Below are positions 15,113 to 27,523 of a stretch of DNA of 64,000 bases, piece after piece. Position 1 is the first letter of the stretch. Every line of letters begins with the position of its first letter. Below the pieces are notes generated by a model. The model was not told the DNA's origin. It did not search any database and worked only from the letters and a program-made list of their open reading frames with translations. Source of the DNA: Actinomycetospora endophytica (GTDB lineage Bacteria > Actinomycetota > Actinomycetes > Mycobacteriales > Pseudonocardiaceae); NCBI RefSeq assembly GCF_021026375.1, contig NZ_JAJNDB010000002.1:682001-746000 (forward strand). The letters run 5' to 3'. A program made the translations under genes and the position numbers.

Positions 15113-16897
15113 ATGGCCGAGGCCCGCCCACCCGCCGTCACCACCGACGTCGTCGTGGTGGGCACCGGTCCGGCCGGGGCCTCGATGGCGCTGGCCCTGG
15201 CGACGCTCGGCGTCGACCACCTCGTCGTCACCCGCTACGACTCGCTGGCCGCGGAGCCTCGCGCGCACATCACCAACCAGCGCACGATGGAGGTCCTCGA
15301 CGACCTCGGCGTCGCCGGCGAGGTGATCGCCCAGGCCACCCCGCAGGACCTCATCGGCACCACGACGTTCTGCACGGCGATCGCGGGGGAGGAGCTCGGC
15401 CGGGTCCGCTCCTGGGGGACCGACCCGGAGACCCGCGCGGCGCACGTGCGCGCGAGCCCGGGCCGGGTCTGCGACATGCCGCAGAACCTCATGGAGCCGG
15501 TGCTGGTGAACGCGGCAACCGCCCGGGGCTCGCGCATCCGGTACGGCACCGAGTACCTGTCCCACGTCGTCGACGACGACGGGGTAACTGTGACGGTCCG
15601 GGACCGGACGCGATCCGACGACGGCGCGGAGTACGACATCCGGGCCCGCTACCTCTACGGCGCCGACGGCGGTCGATCGCGGGTCGCCGACGCGGCCGAG
15701 CTCCCGATGCGCGGCGAGATGGGCGTGGCCGGGTCGCTCAACATCGTCTTCCGCGCCGACCTCTCCCCGTGGGTCGCGCACCGGCCGAGCGTCCTCTACT
15801 GGGTGCTGCAGCCGGGCTCGGACGTCGGCGGCATCGGGATGGGCCTGGTCCGGATGGTCCGGCCGTGGAACGAGTGGCTCACGGTGTGGGGCTACGACGC
15901 CGCCGACGGGCCGCCCGACCTGTCGGAGGAGTTCACGAAGGGCCTGGTCCGCCGGCTGGTCGGGGTGGACGACCTCGACGTCGAGATCGTCGGGAGCTCG
16001 GCCTGGACGGTGAACCACATGGCCGCCGAGCACTACGGCTCCGGGCGGGTCTTCTGCGGCGGCGACGCGGTACACCGGCACCCGCCGTCGAACGGGCTGG
16101 GGTCGAACACCTCGATCCAGGACTCGTTCAACCTCGCCTGGAAGCTCGCGCTGGTGCTGCGCGGTGACGCCGGCCCGGGGCTGCTCGACAGCTACACCGT
16201 CGAGCGCGCGCCGATCGGACGGCAGGTCGTCGACCGCGCCAACCGCTCGATCGCCGAGACCGGCCGGATCTTCGACGCGCTCGGGGTGAGCGGGACGGAC
16301 GACCCCGACGTCATGCGCGCGAACATGGACGCCCGCAAGGACTCCGGCGCCGGGGCCGAGAAGCAGCGGCGGGCGCTGCGCGAGGCGGTGCGGTTCAAGG
16401 CCTACGAGTTCGACGCGCACGGGGTCGAGCTCAACCACCGGTACGTCTCGTCCGCCGTCGTGCCGGACAGGCTCGCCCCGGACCCGCTCGACGTCGTGGA
16501 GGACCCGGAGCTGACCCATGCGCCGTCGACGACGCCCGGGGCGCGGGTGCCGCACGCGTGGCTGGCCGCCCACGGGGCCGGTCGTCGGGAGGTCTCGACG
16601 ATCCAGCTGGCCGGGCACGGCCGGTTCACGCTGTTCACGGGGCCGGGCGGCGAGGCGTGGGGCGAGGCGCCCGACGTCGTGAGCGGTCTCGTCGCGCTCG
16701 TCGTCGTGGGGCCCGGCCGGGAGGTCGAGGACCCCTACGGTGACTGGGCGACGCTGCTCGAGGCCGCCGGGATCGGCGACACCGGTGCGGTGCTCGTGCG
16801 CCCCGACCACCACGTGGCCGCGCGGTTCGCCGCGCTGCCGGACGATCCCACCACCACCCTGACCACCACGCTCGATCGAGCGCTGTCGCGCATGTGA
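15113..16897 (+). CDS. FAD-binding phenol/resorcinol-type hydroxylase (TfdB-like)
   Basis: A 594-residue flavoprotein hydroxylase, the length of 2,4-dichlorophenol 6-monooxygenase and phenol hydroxylases. Motifs in order: VVVVGTGPAGASMALALATL (FAD), YLYGADGGRSRVADAAE (DG motif), CGGDAVHRHPPSNGLGSNTS (FAD ribityl contact), and a C-terminal thioredoxin-like domain (GRFTLFTGPGGEAW). With the intradiol dioxygenase and maleylacetate reductase downstream, the likely job is NAD(P)H-dependent hydroxylation of resorcinol or a (chloro)phenol to hydroxyquinol or a catechol. GAGGAG precedes the ATG. The stop codon lies inside the 46-bp palindrome. Confidence 0.85.
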   Translation: MAEARPPAVTTDVVVVGTGPAGASMALALATLGVDHLVVTRYDSLAAEPRAHITNQRTMEVLDDLGVAGEVIAQATPQDLIGTTTFCTAIAGEELGRVRSWGTDPETRAAHVRASPGRVCDMPQNLMEPVLVNAATARGSRIRYGTEYLSHVVDDDGVTVTVRDRTRSDDGAEYDIRARYLYGADGGRSRVADAAELPMRGEMGVAGSLNIVFRADLSPWVAHRPSVLYWVLQPGSDVGGIGMGLVRMVRPWNEWLTVWGYDAADGPPDLSEEFTKGLVRRLVGVDDLDVEIVGSSAWTVNHMAAEHYGSGRVFCGGDAVHRHPPSNGLGSNTSIQDSFNLAWKLALVLRGDAGPGLLDSYTVERAPIGRQVVDRANRSIAETGRIFDALGVSGTDDPDVMRANMDARKDSGAGAEKQRRALREAVRFKAYEFDAHGVELNHRYVSSAVVPDRLAPDPLDVVEDPELTHAPSTTPGARVPHAWLAAHGAGRREVSTIQLAGHGRFTLFTGPGGEAWGEAPDVVSGLVALVVVGPGREVEDPYGDWATLLEAAGIGDTGAVLVRPDHHVAARFAALPDDPTTTLTTTLDRALSRM

Positions 16898-16936
16898 ACG
16901 GATGTGGTCGTCATGACGACCACATCCGTTCACATG
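16891..16936. repeat. 46-bp perfect palindrome spanning the hydroxylase stop codon
   Basis: Two 22-base arms (CATGTGAACGGATGTGGTCGTC and its complement, separated only by AT) form a perfect dyad. It begins in the second-last codon of the hydroxylase, includes its TGA and ends 17 bases before the dioxygenase ATG. As RNA it would fold into a long uninterrupted hairpin within the operon, which could cause partial termination, RNA processing or protection; as DNA it could extrude a cruciform. Its GTGA...TCAC ends recall the palindromes at 18856 and 25340. Confidence 0.9.
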
Positions 16937-16953
16937 GCCCGGAGGGCCCTGTT

Positions 16954-17823
16954 ATGGACTTCAGCGAGAAGGACTCCGTCGACGCCGTGACCGCGAGCTT
17001 CGCGGACACGCCCGACCCGCGGCTGGCCGAGGTGATGGACAGCCTCGTGCGCCACCTGCACGGCTTCCTGCGGGAGGTGCGCCCGAGCATCGCGGAGTGG
17101 GAGCAGGGGATCGAGTTCCTCACCGCGATCGGGCAGAAGTGCGACGACCACCGCCAGGAGTTCATCCTGTTATCCGACGTGCTGGGGGCGTCGATGCTGG
17201 TCGAGACGATGGAGGCGTCGCGGCAGGCGCAGGATGCGACGGCATCCACCGTGCTCGGGCCGTTCCACGTGGTCCGCAGCCCGGAGCGGGCGCTCGGCGA
17301 CACGATCGACTCGGTCGGCACCGGCGAGGCCTGTCTGATCGAGGGCGTCGTGACCGCGCCCGACGGGACGCCGGTGCCGGGCGCACGGATCGACGTCTGG
17401 CAGGCCGACGACCACGGCTTCTACGACGTCCAGGTCCCCGACGACCAGCCGCTCGGCAACGGGCGCGGCCTCTTCACCGCCGACGACGACGGCCGGTTCT
17501 GGTTCCGGTCGATCGTCCCGGCGCACTACCCGATCCCGACCGACGGGCCGGTCGGGGCGTTGCTGCGCGCGTCGCAGCGCCACCCGTACCGGCCCGCGCA
17601 CGTGCACTTCATCGTCGAGGCGCCCGGCTACGTCCCGGTGACCACGCACGTGTTCGTCGAGGGCAGCGCCTACCTCGACTCGGACGCCGTGTTCGCGGTG
17701 AAGCAGTCGCTGGTGCGGGAGTTCGCGCCGGTCGACGACCCCGACGAGGCCGCCCGGCTCGGCCTGCCGAACCCGTTCCGGCGGGCGCGGTTCGACGTCG
17801 TGCTGCAGCCTGCCGCGTCATGA
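16954..17823 (+). CDS. intradiol ring-cleavage dioxygenase, hydroxyquinol 1,2-dioxygenase-like
   Basis: A 289-residue non-heme Fe(III) dioxygenase. It has the N-terminal helical dimer domain and the catalytic beta-sandwich with likely ligands Tyr157 (DDHGFYDVQ), Tyr192 (VPAHYPIPTDG), His216 and His218 (YRPAHVHFIVEAPGY). The text VLGPFHVVRSPERALGD and the neighbouring maleylacetate reductase favour hydroxyquinol 1,2-dioxygenase, which yields maleylacetate, over catechol 1,2-dioxygenase; chlorocatechol activity cannot be excluded. GGAGG nine bases upstream marks ATG 16954. It overlaps the reductase by ATGA. Confidence 0.87.
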   Translation: MDFSEKDSVDAVTASFADTPDPRLAEVMDSLVRHLHGFLREVRPSIAEWEQGIEFLTAIGQKCDDHRQEFILLSDVLGASMLVETMEASRQAQDATASTVLGPFHVVRSPERALGDTIDSVGTGEACLIEGVVTAPDGTPVPGARIDVWQADDHGFYDVQVPDDQPLGNGRGLFTADDDGRFWFRSIVPAHYPIPTDGPVGALLRASQRHPYRPAHVHFIVEAPGYVPVTTHVFVEGSAYLDSDAVFAVKQSLVREFAPVDDPDEAARLGLPNPFRRARFDVVLQPAAS

Positions 17824-18866
17824 GGTTCACCGAGCTGCCGCGGCCCTCCCAGGTGGTCTTCGGGGCCGGGCGGTTCGCCGAGGTCGGCGACGAGGTCGCC
17901 CGGCTGGGGTGCCGCCGCGTCGTCGTCGTGACCACGCCCGGACGCAAGGCGCTGGGGGAGGAGGCCGCCGGTCACCTCGGTGACCGGTCGGCCGGGGTGC
18001 TCGCGGAGGCCGTCGAGCACGTGCCCGGCGAGATCGCGGACGCCGGGGTCGCGCGGGCCCGGGAGCTCGACGCCGACGGGTGCGTCGCGGTCGGCGGCGG
18101 GTCCGCGATCGGGCTCGGGAAGGCGATCGTCCGGGACACCGGGCTGCCGCTGGTCGCGGTGCCCACCACGTACTCGGGCTCGGAGATGACCCCGGTGTGG
18201 GGCCGGACCGAGGACGGCGTGAAGACGACTGGTCGTGACGAGCGGGCGCGCCCCGCCGTCGTCGTGTACGACCCGGAGCTGACGACGTCGTTGCCGGTCG
18301 CCGTTTCGGTGACCAGCGCGGTCAACGCGCTCGCCCACGCCGTGGAGGCGTTGTGGGCGCCGGACGGGACCCCGGTGACGCGGCTGGAGTCGGCGGAGTC
18401 GGCCCGCGCGATCGTCGACGCGCTGCCGCGGGTGGCCTCGTCGCCCGCGGATCCCGACGCCCGGGGCGATCTCCTCTACGGCGCGTGGCTCGCGGGGTCG
18501 GGGCTCGCGGCGACGACGATGGGCCTGCACCACCGGCTCGCGCACGTGCTCGGCGGCGGGCTCGACCTGCCCCACGCCGGCACCCACACCGTGCTGCTGC
18601 CCGCCGTCATGGCCTACACCCTCCCGGCCGCACCGGTCGCCGCGGTGGCCCTGGAGAACGCCCTCGGCGGCGACCCGGTGGCGATCCTGTCCGACCTGCT
18701 CGCACGGTTGGGCGCCCCGACGACGTTGGCCGAGCTCGGCGCGGACGACGCGCAGTTCGACGTGCTGGCCGAGCGCGCGGTGACGCCGCCCCCGACGCAT
18801 CCCCGGGTTCCGACGGCGGCGGAGGTGCGTTCACTGATAGGTGGCCTACGGCCCCGTGAGCACTGA
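17820..18866 (+). CDS. maleylacetate reductase (iron-containing ADH family)
   Basis: A 348-residue NAD(P)H-dependent reductase of maleylacetate to 3-oxoadipate. Landmarks: QVVFGAGRFAEVGDEVARLG at the N-terminus, the nucleotide motif VAVGGGSAIGLGKAI, then VPTTYSGSEMTPVWG, and the His-bearing helix GLHHRLAHVLGG, where family metal-binding residues are partly replaced, as usual for maleylacetate reductases. Its ATG overlaps the dioxygenase stop. The last codons (Arg-Glu-His-stop) are written by the left arm of the palindrome at 18856-18895. Confidence 0.88.
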   Translation: MRFTELPRPSQVVFGAGRFAEVGDEVARLGCRRVVVVTTPGRKALGEEAAGHLGDRSAGVLAEAVEHVPGEIADAGVARARELDADGCVAVGGGSAIGLGKAIVRDTGLPLVAVPTTYSGSEMTPVWGRTEDGVKTTGRDERARPAVVVYDPELTTSLPVAVSVTSAVNALAHAVEALWAPDGTPVTRLESAESARAIVDALPRVASSPADPDARGDLLYGAWLAGSGLAATTMGLHHRLAHVLGGGLDLPHAGTHTVLLPAVMAYTLPAAPVAAVALENALGGDPVAILSDLLARLGAPTTLAELGADDAQFDVLAERAVTPPPTHPRVPTAAEVRSLIGGLRPREH

Positions 18867-18895
18867 TTGACGCCAGGGCGTCAATCAGTGCTCAC
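18856..18895. repeat. 40-bp perfect palindrome between convergent genes (GTGAGCA type)
   Basis: Perfect 19-bp arms (GTGAGCACTGATTGACGCC) with a 2-base spacer. It lies between the converging maleylacetate reductase and formate dehydrogenase genes and contains the reductase stop codon. There is no T-tract, so it is not a classical intrinsic terminator, but the position suits bidirectional termination. The arm matches the left arm at 25343-25360 at 16 of 18 positions, so it is a dispersed element. Confidence 0.9.
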
Positions 18896-18910: not shown

Positions 18911-19843
18911 CTAGAGGTTCTGCACGTGCTGGAACCCGAACCGGCCCTTGATGCAGAGGTGCCCGTGGGTCACCGAGTGGTCGTGCGGCGAGGTCACGTT
19001 GACGATCGTGTTGTGCTGCACGTGCAGCTCCAGCGTGCAGCCGACCCCGCAGAACGAGCAGATCGTGGAGGTCACCGTCTCGTCGTCGGGGTCCCAGATC
19101 CCCGCCTCGCGGCGCTCGTGCTCGGCGACCGACTTCAGCGCCCCCGTCGGGCACACCCCGATGCAGTTCCCGCAGTACACGCACGCCGAGTCCGGCAGCG
19201 GGACCGCGAACTCCGTCGAGATCGTCGCGTCGAACCCGCGCCCGGCGACCGCGATCGCGAACGTGTTCTGCGCGTCGGTCCCGCACGCCTCGACGCACTT
19301 GTAGCAGAGGATGCAGCGGGCGTAGTCGCGCACGTACAGGTCGTTGTCGACGGTGACCGGCTGCGCGACGGTCGCGCGTGTCTCGCCGTCGGGCTCGGCG
19401 TGGTGGCCCGGGTGGCGGTTGCCGCGCTCGCCGGCCGCGGCGGGCGGTCCGGGCGGGCCGTAGCGTTCGGGGTCGGCGCCGTACTCGACCGACCAGCGGG
19501 CGACGTCGTCGCCGGCCTGGGACATGTCGTTGGCCGACTCGAGCAGCTCGAGCACCATCCTGCGGCTGTGCGCGACCCGCTCGGTGTCGGTGCGCACCAC
19601 CATCCCGTCCTCGACCCGGCGCGCGCACGACGGCACCAGCGGGCGCGATCCCTCGACCTCCACCACGCACACCCGGCAGGCGTTGACCGGGGTGAGGTTC
19701 GGCGCCTGGCACAGCCGCGGGGTGTCGCAGCCGGCCCCGTCGAGGACGTCCATGATCGTCGCGCCCTCGGGGACGCGGTGCTCGACGTCGTCGACGGTCA
19801 CGCTGACCAGTCTCCGGATGGTGCCCAGGTCGATCGTCGTCAC
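18911..19843 (-). CDS. formate dehydrogenase Fe-S subunit (detached N-terminal part of alpha subunit)
   Basis: A 310-residue iron-sulfur protein. In order: a [2Fe-2S] NuoG-like domain (Cys in TPRLCQAPNL, NACRVCVVE and VPSCARR), a two-[4Fe-4S] ferredoxin domain (CILCYKCVEACG and CVYCGNCIGVCPTG), and a last segment STICSFCGVGCTLEL...HGHLCIKGRFG, the [4Fe-4S] binding start of the molybdopterin domain that normally opens the catalytic chain. The protein ends there. The rest of that domain is encoded by the first gene of the operon (21719-23692), so the cluster beside the molybdenum site would be supplied in trans. GTG 19843 overlaps the NuoEF stop (GTGA). Confidence 0.85.
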   Translation of the reverse strand: MTTIDLGTIRRLVSVTVDDVEHRVPEGATIMDVLDGAGCDTPRLCQAPNLTPVNACRVCVVEVEGSRPLVPSCARRVEDGMVVRTDTERVAHSRRMVLELLESANDMSQAGDDVARWSVEYGADPERYGPPGPPAAAGERGNRHPGHHAEPDGETRATVAQPVTVDNDLYVRDYARCILCYKCVEACGTDAQNTFAIAVAGRGFDATISTEFAVPLPDSACVYCGNCIGVCPTGALKSVAEHERREAGIWDPDDETVTSTICSFCGVGCTLELHVQHNTIVNVTSPHDHSVTHGHLCIKGRFGFQHVQNL

Positions 19844-21718: not shown

Positions 21719-23692
21719 TCACGATCCGGCCACCGGCACTCGCACGTCGGGAACGTCGCGTTCCTGACGTTCGGCGTCAGCGACGAGGCTTTCCTGACGC
21801 GGGGGAAGGGGCTCGATCCGGATCGCCGTCGCCTTGAACTCCGACGTGCCGGACTGCGGGTCCCACGCCTCGTTGGTGATCAGGTTGACGTCGACCTGCT
21901 CGGAGAAGTGCGGCGTGATGAACGCCAGACCGGGCCGGGCCGCCCCGTCGAACCGGATCGGGGCCTCCACCGCCCCGCGCCGCGAGACCACCCGGACCCG
22001 CTCGCCGTCGGCGATCCCCAGCGCCTCGGCGTCGGCCGGGTCGATGCACAGCGCCTCGTCGCGGCGCAGCGGCGAGGAGTACCCGCCGGTCTGCACCCCG
22101 GAGTTGTACGAGTCGAGGGTGCGCACCGTCGTCAGGCGCAGCGGGAACTCGGCGGTCAGCACGTCGAGCGGCCCGGCGTGCTCGACCCCGGCGAACGGGG
22201 CGGGCTTGCCCCGCGCGGCGGGATCGCGCTCCCACAGCCGGGTGTGCATCGTCGGGGTGCCGGGGTGGTCCTCGCTCGGGCACGGCCACTGCAGCCCGCC
22301 CAGCTCGGTCAGCCGGGCGTAGGACATCCCGGCGTGCCAGTTCAGCGACACCGACCGCAGCTCGTCCCACACCTGCTCGGCGGTCGGCGCGCCCCAGTCG
22401 TGGCCCAGCCTCGTCGCGAGGTCGCAGATGATGTGGGTGTCGGGCCGGGCCAGCCCCGGCGGGTCGATGGCCTTGCGGACGCGCTGCACGCGCCGTTCGG
22501 AGGACGTGACGGTGCCCTCGTACTCGCACCAGTCCGCGCAGCTGGGCAGCACGACGTCGGCCAGCTCCGCGGTCGCGGTCCGGAAGATGTCCTGGACGAC
22601 GAGGTGGTCCAGGCCGGTGAGGAGCTTGCGGGCGTGGGCGACGTCCGCCTCGGACTCGGCCGGGTTCTCTCCGACGCAGTAGACCGCGCGGATCTCCCCG
22701 CGTTCCATCGACTCGAACATCTGCGAGAGGTGCAGGCCCTTGCGCGGCGGGATCGGCGCACCCCAGACGCGCTCGAAGCGTGCCCGCTCGACCTCGTCCT
22801 CGACGTCGTAGCCGCCGGGCAGCTTGTTGGGGATGGAGCCCATGTCCCCGCCGCCCTGCACGTTGTTCTGCCCGCGCAGCGGGACGACGCCGGAGCCCCA
22901 CCGGCCGACGTGGCCGGTGAGCAGCGCGAGGTCGATGAGGGCGCGGACGTTGTCGACGGCGTTGTGGTGCTCGGTGATGCCGAGCGTCCAGCACAGCTGG
23001 GCACGGTCGGCCGTCGCGTAGGCGAGCGCGGTGTCACGGATCAGCGCGGCGTCGACGCCGGTGACCTCCTGCGCGCGCGCCAGGGTCCACGGCTCGACCG
23101 CGGCCCGGTACTCGTCGATGCCCGTCGTCGCGCGCTCGATGAACGCCCGGTTCTCGAGGCCCTCGTCGAGGATCACGCGGCCCATGGCGTGGGCGAGCGC
23201 GATGTCGGTGCCGACGTCCAGGGCCAGGTGCCCCGTCGCCCACTTCGCCGACGAGGTGCGTCGGGGGTCGACGACGTACAGCTCGGCCCCGTTGTGCAGG
23301 CCCTTGAGGACGTGGTGGAAGTAGATCGGGTGGGTGTCGCGCGCGTTCGAGCCCCAGAGGATGACGAGGTCGGTTTCCTCGACCTCCTGATAGGCGCTGG
23401 TGCCACCACCGGCGCCGAACACTGCCGTCAGACCGACGACGCTGGGAGCGTGTCAAGTGCGGTTGCAGGAGTCCACGTTGTTGGACCCCATCACCACCCG
23501 GGAGAACTTCTGGGCGGTGTAGTTCATCTCGTTGGTCGCCTTCGAGCAGGAGAACATCCCGTAGGCCTCGCCCGGCACCCCGCGGAAGCCGGCCGCGGCG
23601 CGGTCGAGCGCTTCGTCCCAGCTCGCGGGACGCAGCTCCCCGTGCTCGCGCACGAGGGGTTCGGTGAGACGGACATGGCGCGGAGCGCGCAT
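21719..23692 (-). CDS. fdhA: selenocysteine-containing formate dehydrogenase catalytic subunit (in-frame TGA)
   Basis: Mo/W-bis-MGD formate dehydrogenase catalytic chain, 657 residues if the TGA at 23453-23455 is read as selenocysteine (residue 80). Before the TGA the frame reads GSNNVDSCNRT and after it HAPSVVGLTAVFGAGGG, the expected context of the active-site (Sec/Cys)-His pair; the usual conserved stretches follow (DLVILWGSNARDTHP, YVVDPRRTSSAKWA, RGQNNVQGGGDMGSIPN). A SECIS-like hairpin follows the TGA. The chain begins at TEPLVREHGELRPASWDEAL; the N-terminal [4Fe-4S] segment is on the gene at 18911-19843. ATG 23692 has GGAGG nine bases upstream. Without recoding this would appear as two ORFs. 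Confidence 0.87.
23424..23455 (-). promoter_or_regulatory. bacterial SECIS element after the selenocysteine UGA
   Basis: Read on the minus strand, UGA CAC G is followed by a hairpin with stem GUCGUC/GACGGC (23435-23440 with 23424-23429, one U-G pair) and apical loop GGUCU (23430-23434). The GGU CUG codons fall at +7 and +8 after UGA, the same spacing and loop text as I recall for E. coli fdhF. This is the signal recognised by SelB. Confidence 0.8.
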
Positions 23693-23797: not shown

Positions 23798-24466
23798 TCA
23801 CGCCTCCGGAACGGCGATCCCCGTCAGCAGTTCGGCCAGGCCACGGGTGTCCGGGTCCAGGCTGACCGCGATCACCCGCTCGGCGACGACGATCAGCGGC
23901 TCGGCCGCGGCGTTGGCGAGGTGGGCGAGCAGCGCGGCGCCCGCCTCGGACGTCAGTTCCATCGCGTCGGCGAGGACGTCGGCGGCCCGGCCGACGTGGC
24001 GGTCGTGCTCGGCGGCGGACCACGACGAGCCCAGCGAGGGCAGCCGGCCCTGCGGGTCACCGCGCGGGAACGGCGCGGTCGGGATGCCGACGGACGCGGT
24101 CGCCGTGAACTCGGCGGACGAGGGGCGGGGCGCCGTCGTCGCCAGGTGCACCAGGTAGCCGCGCAGCAGCAGGCCCGGAGGCCAGCGCTCGTCGTGGTCG
24201 GCGGGATGCCCGACGGCGACCACCTGGTGGATGGTGCCGTCGACCGACACGATCCGATGTCGGCAGGTGTAGGCCAATCGGTGGGCGACCGCGTCGGCCA
24301 TGATGCGCTCGACGTGCGCCCGATCGTCGGGATGCTTGTGCGCGACGACGAGCGCCCGGCTCGGCCGGACCTCGCCGGAGGCGTATCCGAGCAGGTGGAA
24401 CATGGTGTCGTTCCAGATCCACCGGTCCGAGCTGGGGTGCCAGGAGTAGGCGCCGATCTTGTCCAT
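23798..24466 (-). CDS. PAS-domain regulator with degenerate ANTAR-like C-terminus
   Basis: A 222-residue cytoplasmic protein. The first ~110 residues are a PAS_3-type sensor (IGAYSWHPSSDRWIWNDTMF, HPDDRAHVERIMADAV, YTCRHRIVSVDGTIHQVVAV). The last ~60 residues (ADVLADAMELTSEAGAALL, then ANAAAEPLIVVAERVIA) resemble the helical ANTAR RNA-binding domain but lack the usual AKG motif. It lies 105 bases upstream of, and on the same strand as, the formate dehydrogenase operon, so it may regulate it, perhaps by antitermination; that is inference. Confidence 0.65.
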   Translation of the reverse strand: MDKIGAYSWHPSSDRWIWNDTMFHLLGYASGEVRPSRALVVAHKHPDDRAHVERIMADAVAHRLAYTCRHRIVSVDGTIHQVVAVGHPADHDERWPPGLLLRGYLVHLATTAPRPSSAEFTATASVGIPTAPFPRGDPQGRLPSLGSSWSAAEHDRHVGRAADVLADAMELTSEAGAALLAHLANAAAEPLIVVAERVIAVSLDPDTRGLAELLTGIAVPEA

Positions 24467-24595
24467 CGCACCCCTGACGGTCACGGGCCCGGACGATCCG
24501 GAGGGTAACGGCGTACCCAACGATCGGGGTAAACCATCCCTCGACAGGGCATCGATTCTCGGATGGTGTCCTGGGCCACCCCTAGAGTCGGTCGC

Positions 24596-25327
24596 GTGCC
24601 GAGCACCGTGGACCTGCTCCCGCCCACCGTCTGCCTGGATCACCTGGATTCCGCGACCGCGAGGTTCTCGACGGCGCTCGCCGGGGCCGACCTCGCCGCG
24701 CCCGTCCCGTCGTGCCCGCCGTGGAGCCTGCGCGAGCTCGCCCACCATCTCGGCGGGGTGCACCGCTGGGCCCGGGTGGCCGTGCTCGAGGGGCACCCGA
24801 ACGGCACGTCCGACGATCCGCCGTCGTCCCGGGCGGACCTGGTCGCGTGGTTCGACGAGGGCTCGGCCGCGTTGATCTCGACGCTGCGGGAGGCCGGTCC
24901 GGACGCCCCGTGCTGGTCGTTCGGCCCGAAGCCGCGGACCGCGGCGTTCTGGTTCCGGCGCCAGGCCCACGAGACCGCGATGCACGCCCACGACGCCGAG
25001 GTCGCGTCCGGCACGGCAGGGGCGCTGGCGTCCGACTTCGCCCTCGACGGCCTCGACGAGGCGATCGCGATGTTCCTGCCCCGTCAGGTCCGGCTCGGGC
25101 GGTGCACGGTGCCGGACGTCCGGATCGCGGTGGCGAGCGCCGAGGGACCGTCGTGGGAGATCGCCGGGGACGGCGCGCCGGAGCGCCCGGCGGCCACCGT
25201 GCGCGGGGACGCCGAGGCGCTGCTCCTGCTGGTGTGGGGACGGGTCGGTCCCGACGACGCGCGGGTCGACGTCGAGGGGGACCGGGGCGCGGTGGACGCG
25301 GTGCTGGCGGCGGGGCTGACCCCCTAG
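24596..25327 (+). CDS. mycothiol-dependent maleylpyruvate isomerase/DinB-family protein
   Basis: A 243-residue protein of the actinobacterial maleylpyruvate isomerase N-terminal (DinB-like four-helix) family. Family features are VPSCPPWSLRELAHHLGGVHRWA near the front, WFRRQAHETAMHAHDAE in the middle (His and Glu are candidate metal ligands) and a C-terminal MDMPI-C-like part (ATVRGDAEALLLLVWGR). Function is probably a mycothiol-dependent isomerase or transferase with unknown substrate. GTG 24596 follows a TAGAGT box at 24583-24588 by seven bases, so the message is probably leaderless. Confidence 0.75.
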   Translation: MPSTVDLLPPTVCLDHLDSATARFSTALAGADLAAPVPSCPPWSLRELAHHLGGVHRWARVAVLEGHPNGTSDDPPSSRADLVAWFDEGSAALISTLREAGPDAPCWSFGPKPRTAAFWFRRQAHETAMHAHDAEVASGTAGALASDFALDGLDEAIAMFLPRQVRLGRCTVPDVRIAVASAEGPSWEIAGDGAPERPAATVRGDAEALLLLVWGRVGPDDARVDVEGDRGAVDAVLAAGLTP

Positions 25328-25339
25328 GTGCGCTCCGCG

Positions 25340-25385
25340 CTCGTGAGCAGTAATTGACGCTCTGGCGTCAGTTAGTGCTCACGAG
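25340..25385. repeat. 46-bp imperfect palindrome between convergent genes (GTGAGCA type)
   Basis: 21-bp arms (25340-25360 and 25365-25385) with two mismatches and the loop TCTG. It lies between the DinB-family gene (stop 25327) and the histidine kinase, whose last codons and TGA are inside the right arm. The core GTGAGCAGTAATTGACGC differs from the element at 18856 at two of 18 positions. No T-tract follows. Confidence 0.88.
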
Positions 25386-26837
25386 GCCGGAGGCCACCAG
25401 GTCCGAGCCGTCGGCCGTCGCGCGGTAGACCAGCTCGCCGCCGTGCGCGCGGACGAGCGCCCGCGCGATGGCCAGTCCGAGGCCCGCCCCGCCGGAGTCG
25501 CGTGCCCGGGCCTCGTCCAGCCGCACCAGCCGGTCGAAGATGCGCTCGCGGTCCGCCTCGGCGACCGGCTCGCCGTCGTTGTGCACCACCAGCTCCCCGT
25601 CCGCGACCGTCACCCGCACCGCGCCGCCCGGGCGCACGTGCCGGCGCGCGTTGTCGAGCAGGTTGATCAGCACCCGCCGCAGCTTCTGCTCGTCGCCCGG
25701 CACGACGACGGGTCCGGGCGCATCCACCGTCACGTCCAGGTCGGGGTCGACCAGCCGCAGCCGTCCCACCTGGTCGGTGACCAGCGCGGTGAGGTCCACC
25801 GGCCGCCGGTCGAGGTCCTCCCCGCCCTCGATGCGGGCGAGGTCGAGCATGTCGGTGACCAGCGACGACGCCCGCGAGGTCTCCCGCACCAGCGCGATCG
25901 CGAGCTCCTCGCGGGTCTCGCGGTCGTCGTCGGAGTCGCGCACGAGGGTCTCGGCGAGGGTCTGCATGCCGGCCAGCGGCGTGCGCAGTTCGTGGGCGGC
26001 GTCGGAGAGGAACCGTCGGGTCGTCGCCTCGGAGCGCCGGGCCTCCTGCTCGGCCGCCCGAGCCTGCGCCGCGGCGTCGAGCGCGTCACGGGCGGACGTC
26101 TCGGAGCGCTGCCGGGCGGCCTCGAGCGCGTCGAGCATCTCGTCGAACGCCGCCGCAGTCCGCCCGATCTCGGTGTTCGTCGTCGTCGGGCGCAGTCGTC
26201 GTCCGCGGTCCCCGGTGGTGATCGCCCGGGCCACCCGGGTCATCGCGTCCAGCGGCCGCAGCGCCGCGGTGACCCCGGTGAACAGCACCACCGCCGAGAT
26301 CGCCAGCCCGACCAGCCCGACCCCGATCATCACCCCCCGCAGCACGTGGACCACCGAGTCGATCTCCCCGGGATCCGCGAACAGCCGGACGACGGTGCCG
26401 TCGGCCAGCCGGGTGTCGACGGTCGGGCCCCGGACGCCGCGCATCCCCGGCCCCGGCCCGTCCCCGGGTGGTCGGCCGCCGGGGCCTGGCGGGCGAGGCG
26501 CGCCCGGTCCGCCGGGCGGGTCGGGGAGTCCCTGCAGCACCGCCCCGGTGGCGGACACCCGGACCGCGCGCACCCCCTGGCCGTCGAGCAGGGACACCAT
26601 CTGGTCGGGCGGCACCTGCTGCGCGACGAGGGTGGTCGCCCGCGCCGCCCGCTCGGTGAGCCGGGACTGCTGGTCGCGGTCGAGCGCCTGACCGAGGACG
26701 ACGTCGACGACCAGACCGGCCACCAGCAGCGTCACCGCGACGACGGCGACGACGGTCGCGGTCACCCGCCAGCGCAGCGAGAGCGTCGGGACGATGCGGT
26801 CACCCGCCCGCTGCCGCAACCAGGCGAGCGACCTCAC
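25368..26837 (-). CDS. HAMP-domain sensor histidine kinase
   Basis: A 489-residue membrane kinase: TM1 (about residues 25-50), an extracytoplasmic domain of about 115 residues with a Pro/Gly-rich stretch (GAPRPPGPGGRPPGDGPGPG), TM2 (about 165-190), HAMP, a coiled segment, then the dimerisation domain with His282 in SDAAHELRTPLAG and the HATPase (LINLLDNARRHV, GGAGLGLAIAR). Its GTG overlaps the regulator stop by GTGA, so kinase and regulator are coupled. The C-terminal residues LVSTN come from the palindrome at 25340-25385. Confidence 0.9.
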   Translation of the reverse strand: MRSLAWLRQRAGDRIVPTLSLRWRVTATVVAVVAVTLLVAGLVVDVVLGQALDRDQQSRLTERAARATTLVAQQVPPDQMVSLLDGQGVRAVRVSATGAVLQGLPDPPGGPGAPRPPGPGGRPPGDGPGPGMRGVRGPTVDTRLADGTVVRLFADPGEIDSVVHVLRGVMIGVGLVGLAISAVVLFTGVTAALRPLDAMTRVARAITTGDRGRRLRPTTTNTEIGRTAAAFDEMLDALEAARQRSETSARDALDAAAQARAAEQEARRSEATTRRFLSDAAHELRTPLAGMQTLAETLVRDSDDDRETREELAIALVRETSRASSLVTDMLDLARIEGGEDLDRRPVDLTALVTDQVGRLRLVDPDLDVTVDAPGPVVVPGDEQKLRRVLINLLDNARRHVRPGGAVRVTVADGELVVHNDGEPVAEADRERIFDRLVRLDEARARDSGGAGLGLAIARALVRAHGGELVYRATADGSDLVASGLVSTN

Positions 26838-27523
26838 GCGTCCTCCTCCGCCGGCCGCAGCGTGTAGCCGAGGCCGCGGCTGGTGTGGACGATCCGCGGT
26901 CCGTGCGCCTCGAGCTTGCGCCGGAGCGCCGAGAGGTGGACCTCGACGAGGTTGGGGTCGTACGCGTCGTACCCCCACACCTGGGTCAGGATCTGGTTCT
27001 TGCTCACCAGCCGGCCGCGCTGCTCGGCGAGGTAGCGCAGCAGCCGCAGTTCGGTGGCGGTCAGCTTCAGGGGCGCGCCGGCCCGGGTCGCGACCCCCGC
27101 CTCTTCGTCGATCACCAGGTCCCCGACGACGAGGGCGGTCGGCGTCCGGCCCCGGCGCCGCAGCACCGCCTGCACCCGGCTCGTGAGCTCCTCGAGCAGG
27201 AACGGCTTGACCACGTAGTCGTCCGCGCCGGAGTCCAGGTCGCGCAGGCGGTCGTCGAGGGCGTCGCGGGCGGTCACCATGACGATGCCCGCATCGGTCC
27301 GGTCCCGGACGACGTCGAGCAGCCGGAACCCGTCCCGCCCGGGCAGCATCACGTCGAGGACGACGAGGTCGGGGCGGAAGCCGTCGAGGGTCTCCTCCAG
27401 CGCCGCGCCGTCGGGCAGTCCCCGCGCGGCGTACCCGGAGCGGTCGAGGGTGCGCACGATCGACTCGCGCATCGTCGCCTCGTCCTCGACGACGAGCACC
27501 CGCGGCCCGTCACCCCTGCTCAT
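26834..27523 (-). CDS. OmpR/PhoB-family response regulator
   Basis: A 229-residue regulator. The receiver carries the acidic pair in VVEDEATM, phosphoacceptor Asp57 (LVVLDVMLPGRDG) and Lys106 (DDYVVKPF); the winged-helix domain ends LVEVHLSALRRKLE...RGLGYTLRP. It is the first gene of the operon with its kinase. Three paired CCTGAA-like half-sites with 11-bp period upstream (27547-27633), shared with a divergent Pro/Ala-rich membrane protein gene, are its probable targets. Confidence 0.9.
   Translation of the reverse strand: MSRGDGPRVLVVEDEATMRESIVRTLDRSGYAARGLPDGAALEETLDGFRPDLVVLDVMLPGRDGFRLLDVVRDRTDAGIVMVTARDALDDRLRDLDSGADDYVVKPFLLEELTSRVQAVLRRRGRTPTALVVGDLVIDEEAGVATRAGAPLKLTATELRLLRYLAEQRGRLVSKNQILTQVWGYDAYDPNLVEVHLSALRRKLEAHGPRIVHTSRGLGYTLRPAEEDA

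Follow-up and report, generated by a model that had tools for sequence, protein, structure and literature searches.

The closest described system is FDH3 (FdhA3-FdhB3-FdhC3) of Actinomycetospora chiangmaiensis DSM 45062, published by Rohwerder et al. (2020; PMC7176365). In the sections of that paper used here, FDH3 is called cytoplasmic and NAD-dependent, and all three of its subunits were detected by proteomics, at low abundance; those sections do not state if any peptide covered the Sec residue. The UGA-containing genes of A. chiangmaiensis were submitted to bSECISearch, and FdhA appears in the published table under one RefSeq accession with 640 aa. Formate was found to accumulate when selenite was omitted, and there was hardly any accumulation when it was supplied (PMC7176365). 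Since the authors credited the removal of formate to FDH1, a membrane-bound Sec enzyme, as well as to the cytoplasmic FDH3, the selenium effect described in those sections is not specific to FDH3.

Two better-known enzymes share parts of this arrangement. Formate dehydrogenase H (FdhF) of Escherichia coli has a UGA before His at the position corresponding to that in the gene described here, fdhA, and GGUCU 18 nt downstream, as fdhA does. In FdhF the Fe4S4 domain lies in the same chain, and the enzyme is not known to have an NAD-reducing partner. FdsA of Rhodobacter capsulatus, the alpha subunit of an NAD-dependent formate dehydrogenase, presumably carries Cys where fdhA has Sec. We take PDB entries 6tg9 and 6tga to be this FdsA, with the organism assigned from the part of PMC7171172 consulted.

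The window, a stretch of 64,000 nucleotides from Actinomycetospora endophytica, contains three genes in the order fdhA, fdhB, fdhC on the minus strand, from 23692 down to 18911. Their features are as follows:

21719 to 23692, minus strand: fdhA, catalytic (molybdopterin) subunit of formate dehydrogenase; 657 aa, with residue 80 a presumed selenocysteine; stop codon TGA at 21719-21721
23453 to 23455, minus strand: in-frame TGA, taken as a selenocysteine codon from the reading frame and its conservation
23424 to 23440, minus strand: putative SECIS hairpin of six pairs, loop GGUCU at 23430-23434, 18 nt from UGA to loop
19840 to 21702, minus strand: fdhB, NuoE-NuoF-like fusion, presumed NAD-reducing subunit; 620 aa; 2Fe-2S, FMN-binding, SLBB and 4Fe-4S domains
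18911 to 19843, minus strand: fdhC, HoxU/NuoG-N-like iron-sulfur subunit; 310 aa; Molybdop_Fe4S4 domain at its end

These genes are orthologous to those of A. chiangmaiensis FDH3 (locus L073), and the gene order, the UGA, the hairpin and the split of domains between subunits are the same. The two loci differ only by sequence divergence, with 85, 82.5 and 93.5% identity over aligned residues for the three subunits. From the A. chiangmaiensis genome, the published lengths of 640, 614 and 316 aa were reproduced with the starts ATG, GTG and ATG, each frame ending at a stop; for fdhA, the same start as the ATG used in the window gives the published 640 aa exactly. We are nearly certain that the three genes fdhABC, presumably one operon, specify a cytoplasmic, NAD-reducing Mo (or W) formate dehydrogenase with a selenoprotein as its catalytic subunit. 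The evidence for this consists of the reading frame, its conservation, the hairpin with its covariation, the sel genes and the layout of domains.

The sequence-only reading had described a frame that is broken by the TGA at 23453-23455 and yet continues for 577 codons with formate dehydrogenase sequence, and translation and domain assignment confirmed this. The TGA is flanked in frame by NVDSCNRT and HAPSVVGLTAVFG, with 577 sense codons on its 3' side. Starting at the ATG at 23692, fdhA has 657 residues with the UGA as codon 80, and when the UGA is taken as a residue the product is one open chain with molybdopterin oxidoreductase and dinucleotide-binding domains. The same reading had placed the TGA at the active-site Sec/Cys position before His, and this too was borne out, as homologues carry UGA or Cys there. 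The resulting motif is UHxP, which a table in PMC13188914 gives as the motif of selenoprotein FdhA. With the NCBIfam model for the formate dehydrogenase alpha subunit, TIGR01591, fdhA scored 613.2 bits, below the cut-off of 666.25. Model positions 52-672 were matched by fdhA and positions 1-49 by fdhC.

Protein searches against genomes of the genus, of the family and of a named collection provided 201 homologous loci, 200 of which were readable at the site. After removal of copies alike in both site context and protein stretch, 160 distinct homologues were left, with UGA at the site in 93, TGC in 40 and TGT in 27. Three of the 67 Cys genes (L233-L235) are distant, at 41-42% identity to the query. 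The finding of homologues with a true stop would have spoken against a selenoprotein, and all 160 have UGA or Cys, none a different stop. In the named collection, 78 of the best 80 of 171 relatives have TGA and two, from Nocardiopsis, have TGC, a ratio that is biased because the query belongs to the UGA family and only the best 80 are included.

Translation table 11 reads TGA as a stop, and on that reading the gene would be broken and its downstream part decaying. Selection does not fit such decay, since pN was lower than pS on both the 5' and the 3' side of the TGA against all eight relatives compared (3' side: pN 0.046-0.182, pS 0.263-0.385). The gene was present with TGA at the same column in each of the 18 genus genomes searched, including its own, and fdhB and fdhC downstream are open with their domains kept. 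A true stop is therefore hardly credible, and the apparent stop codon in fdhA is very probably read as selenocysteine to give a formate-oxidising enzyme.

Codon usage around the site is also unusually constant. When fdhA is scanned 16 codons at a time, the highest proportions of invariant codons fall in the segments that begin 3 and 4 codons 5' of the TGA, and among residue-invariant columns just 3' of it 10 of 15 are codon-invariant vs 122 of 357 elsewhere (Fisher p = 0.013). This was considered as proof of a downstream element and rejected: in the usable columns just 5' of the TGA, 8 of 12 are codon-invariant, so the constancy marks the site and not its downstream side.

The hairpin was evaluated by comparison between homologues. 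A six-pair stem with loop GGUCU at a distance from the UGA like that in E. coli fdhF had been claimed from the sequence, and a comparison with the fdhF sequence upheld it, with 18 nt and GGUCU in both. The predicted fdhF hairpin has a bulge in its stem, whereas the hairpin in the window (GUCGUC-GGUCU-GACGGC, 23440-23424) has six pairs. Loop GGUCU together with all six pairs was found in 93 of 93 distinct UGA homologues vs 0 of 67 Cys homologues, among which the loop string alone occurs in five. Codons +7 (GGT) and +8 (CTG) are the same in all 93 UGA genes, and GGT stands at +7 in 5 of the 67 Cys genes; as a share of all Gly codons, GGT makes up 11.9% in the UGA set and 8.6% in the Cys set. One pair between codons +5 and +9 changes from C-G to G-C, on both sides, in six of the 93 UGA genes, and a pair between codons +6 and +9 is U-A, U-G or C-G in 59, 25 and 9 of them, respectively. 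When the partner arm was slid by -3, -2, -1, +1 or +2 bases, no UGA gene kept six pairs, and at +3 they were kept in 36 of 93. These counts should not be read as probabilities, since the sequences are related and one of them supplied the structure.

Folding of single sequences was rejected as proof of a SECIS element. Compared to shuffled sequences, the three stretches folded had no unusual stability (z +0.20, +0.53 and -0.10), and in stretches of 49 and 71 nt a competing hairpin was favoured. The claim of a hairpin therefore rests on the comparison. Rfam returned no match to the hairpin at the gathering score, and with E up to 10 the 101 bases around the site gave only two chance-level matches to unrelated families (E 4.4 and 9). 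The bSECIS criteria, as listed in the part of PMC13188914 used, are a loop of 3-9 nt with G in the first two positions, a stem of 4-16 pairs, a distance of 16-37 nt from the UGA and an MFE of at most -7.5 kcal/mol. The 5-nt loop GGUCU, the six pairs and the 18 nt lie within these ranges. The energy limit is reached only when the 40 nt from the UGA, hairpin included, are folded (-12.0 kcal/mol), as the 17-nt hairpin alone has -6.8 kcal/mol.

Another possible explanation is that the UGA does encode Sec while the hairpin is an accident of conserved Gly-Leu codons in a GC-rich gene and has no role. The Gly-Leu at the same place in the Cys homologues inspected, the folding z-scores near zero and the 36 of 93 genes that keep six pairs when one arm is slid by +3 are all compatible with an accident. 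An accident does not account for a GGT that is fixed with UGA and rare with Cys, for changes at codons +5/+9 and +6/+9 that preserve pairing, or for six pairs that are complete in every UGA gene vs none of the Cys genes. We regard it as extremely improbable, and the hairpin is best seen as the SECIS element of fdhA.

The genome (6.98 Mb, 17 contigs) was then considered for selenocysteine machinery. SelA, SelB, SelD and tRNA-Sec had been implied to lie elsewhere in the genome, and all four were found. A tRNA-Sec with anticodon UCA lies on contig C2 (136238-136329; 70.3 bits), where selA (SelA, 312 bits) adjoins selB (SelB, 258 bits, with a winged-helix domain); selD is on C11 (SelD, 381 bits) and fdhD on C1 (FdhD, 166 bits), each over its cut-off. 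Only matches over the cut-off were counted, because the tRNA-Sec, SelB and SelD models also match below it in 14 of 14 control genomes. All 18 genus genomes had SelD over the cut-off. Of the family genomes that carry the UGA gene, 50 of 53 had SelA at E 1e-60; of those that carry the close Cys gene, 35 of 62 did. This comparison excludes three genomes that have only 41-42% identical matches. The three genomes with the UGA gene in which SelA was not found at this threshold (G014, G315 and G320) have assemblies of about 640, 380 and 1060 contigs. The sel genes were rejected as a predictor of UGA, as Cys versions also occur in SelA-bearing genomes (the 35 of 62).

A second formate dehydrogenase, of the FdnG type and with its own in-frame UGA (ARI-U-HSATVPG), lies outside the window on the minus strand, within L018:12955-16731. 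It is on C2 near the sel genes, beside the tRNA-Sec.

Independently of the sel machinery, the UGA might also be decoded as Cys or Trp, by read-through in general or by a suppressor tRNA. Because Cys occupies the site in 67 of 160 distinct homologues, insertion of Cys would also give a plausible enzyme. The SECIS-type hairpin, though, is kept only where there is a UGA (93/93 vs 0/67), the genome has a complete sel set with tRNA-Sec(UCA), and dependence on selenium has been published for the genus (PMC7176365, in the sections used). Insertion of another residue thus has only a minute chance of being correct. A selenoprotein is supported by the sel genes and tRNA-Sec, by the fdhF-like spacing and loop and by the UGA or Cys in homologues.

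Within the family, UGA genes were found in genera g1, g14, g17, g30 and g45 and Cys genes in g10, g23, g25, g35 and g42, and no genus had both among copies readable at the site. Of the 160 distinct homologues, 69 were picked, partly at random, for a quick tree (LG+G4, short search). They comprised 41 distant UGA genes, 8 near UGA genes, 17 Cys genes and, as outgroup, 3 distant Cys genes. The Sec/Cys labels need one change on this tree, at a branch support of 28, so the tree leaves the direction of the exchange, gain vs loss, undecided. Nor does it settle where L149 and L150 belong between the other UGA genes and the family's Cys genes. These are two UGA genes of genus g17, about 65% identical to fdhA, with the stem form GCC-GGTCT-GGC.

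The division of domains between the subunits sets the locus apart from FdsA. fdhA lacks the Fe4S4 domain, and Molybdop_Fe4S4 stands at the end of fdhC. FdsA has the same domains as fdhC and fdhA together; it is one chain of 958 residues, whereas the window encodes two chains, with the gene for the C-terminal part first, that for the diaphorase next and that for the N-terminal part last. On the FdsA chain (PDB 6tg9), fdhC corresponds to residues 13-302 and fdhA to residues 306-932. As the match splits between 302 and 306, the Fe4S4 domain that belongs ahead of the molybdopterin domain sits on another polypeptide. All elements of an FdsA-type enzyme are present over the three genes (molybdopterin domain, Fe4S4 domain, 2Fe-2S/4Fe-4S arm and NuoE-/NuoF-like diaphorase), but the Fe-S arm, Fe4S4 and molybdopterin domains are not on one alpha chain. 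Judged by its domains, the product of fdhABC would be a formate:NAD oxidoreductase.

The split was counted in the named loci, again the best 80 of 171 relatives, and family Cys genes were covered over the fdhA stretch alone. In 69 of the 80, the fdhC frame carries the Fe4S4 domain near its end, and the stretches of the other 11 end before the domain; in L122 the domain is cut by the edge. L103 was also flagged because an open frame that overlies its fdhA site contains the Fe4S4 domain; the test concerned considers position only, and the two frames differ. Split loci are labelled Actinomycetota, Acidobacteriota, Chloroflexota, Gemmatimonadota, Planctomycetota, Spirochaetota and Bacillota, labels that may be wrong as many come from metagenome bins. 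The main text of PMC7176365, as far as it was available, does not mention the missing Fe4S4 domain or use the terms iron-sulfur or Fe-S. No account of a split alpha chain was found in the literature searched, including the portions of PMC13397495 and PMC7325909 covered, which gives little ground to call it unreported.

The surroundings of the locus have features of their own. A 40-bp palindrome, GTGAGCA(C/G)TNANTGACGC-N4-GCGTCA..., occurs at 18856-18895 and 25343-25382, each time at the meeting point of two convergent genes. Its pattern has 34 sites in the genome and none when read backwards, and it looks like a repeated bidirectional terminator or a REP-like element. Convergent with the fdh genes, at 15113-18866 on the plus strand, are genes for an FAD-dependent aromatic hydroxylase, an intradiol (catechol-type) dioxygenase and an iron-containing alcohol dehydrogenase family protein, which overlap by a few bases each and which we take to resemble a hydroxyquinol/maleylacetate pathway. 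Immediately upstream of fdhA on the same strand (23798-24991, minus) is a PAS-fold protein, possibly a regulator, and a histidine kinase and response regulator pair lies at 25368-27523 (minus).

The proposed mechanism is as follows. fdhABC would be co-transcribed, and a ribosome meeting the UGA at codon 80 of fdhA would insert Sec instead of terminating. The hairpin, with its loop 18 nt downstream of the UGA, would recruit SelB carrying Sec-tRNA(UCA), which would be made by SelA with selenophosphate from SelD. In this strain's FdhA, the Sec would then ligand the Mo or W of the bis-pterin cofactor. Electrons from formate would pass from the Fe4S4 cluster on FdhC through further Fe-S clusters to the FMN on FdhB and on to NAD, the likely acceptor. 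Selenium-dependent formate removal and the detection of three subunits have been shown by others in the same genus (PMC7176365, in the sections used).

Since the genus already has a described enzyme that matches it, FdhA is a well-supported but ordinary selenoprotein. The selenoprotein reading is not new; it is known in kind and, through the FDH3 orthologue of 2020, nearly in person. For the selenocysteine field it is one more example and no surprise. What it confirms is a selenoprotein that a plain table-11 reading breaks in two. The 93 UGA and 67 Cys homologues are a clean comparative set, in which a SECIS element within the coding region constrains both codons and residues. More tentatively, and at somewhat less than even chances, these loci may represent a broad, undescribed subfamily of NAD-dependent formate dehydrogenases, labelled as several phyla, in which FdsA is split between the Fe4S4 and molybdopterin domains, the cluster by the active site is on another subunit, and the whole SECIS hairpin is present in Sec versions and absent from Cys versions. 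The split chain leads to a testable question, namely how the active site of a molybdoenzyme is assembled if the Fe-S cluster closest to it is supplied by a different polypeptide.
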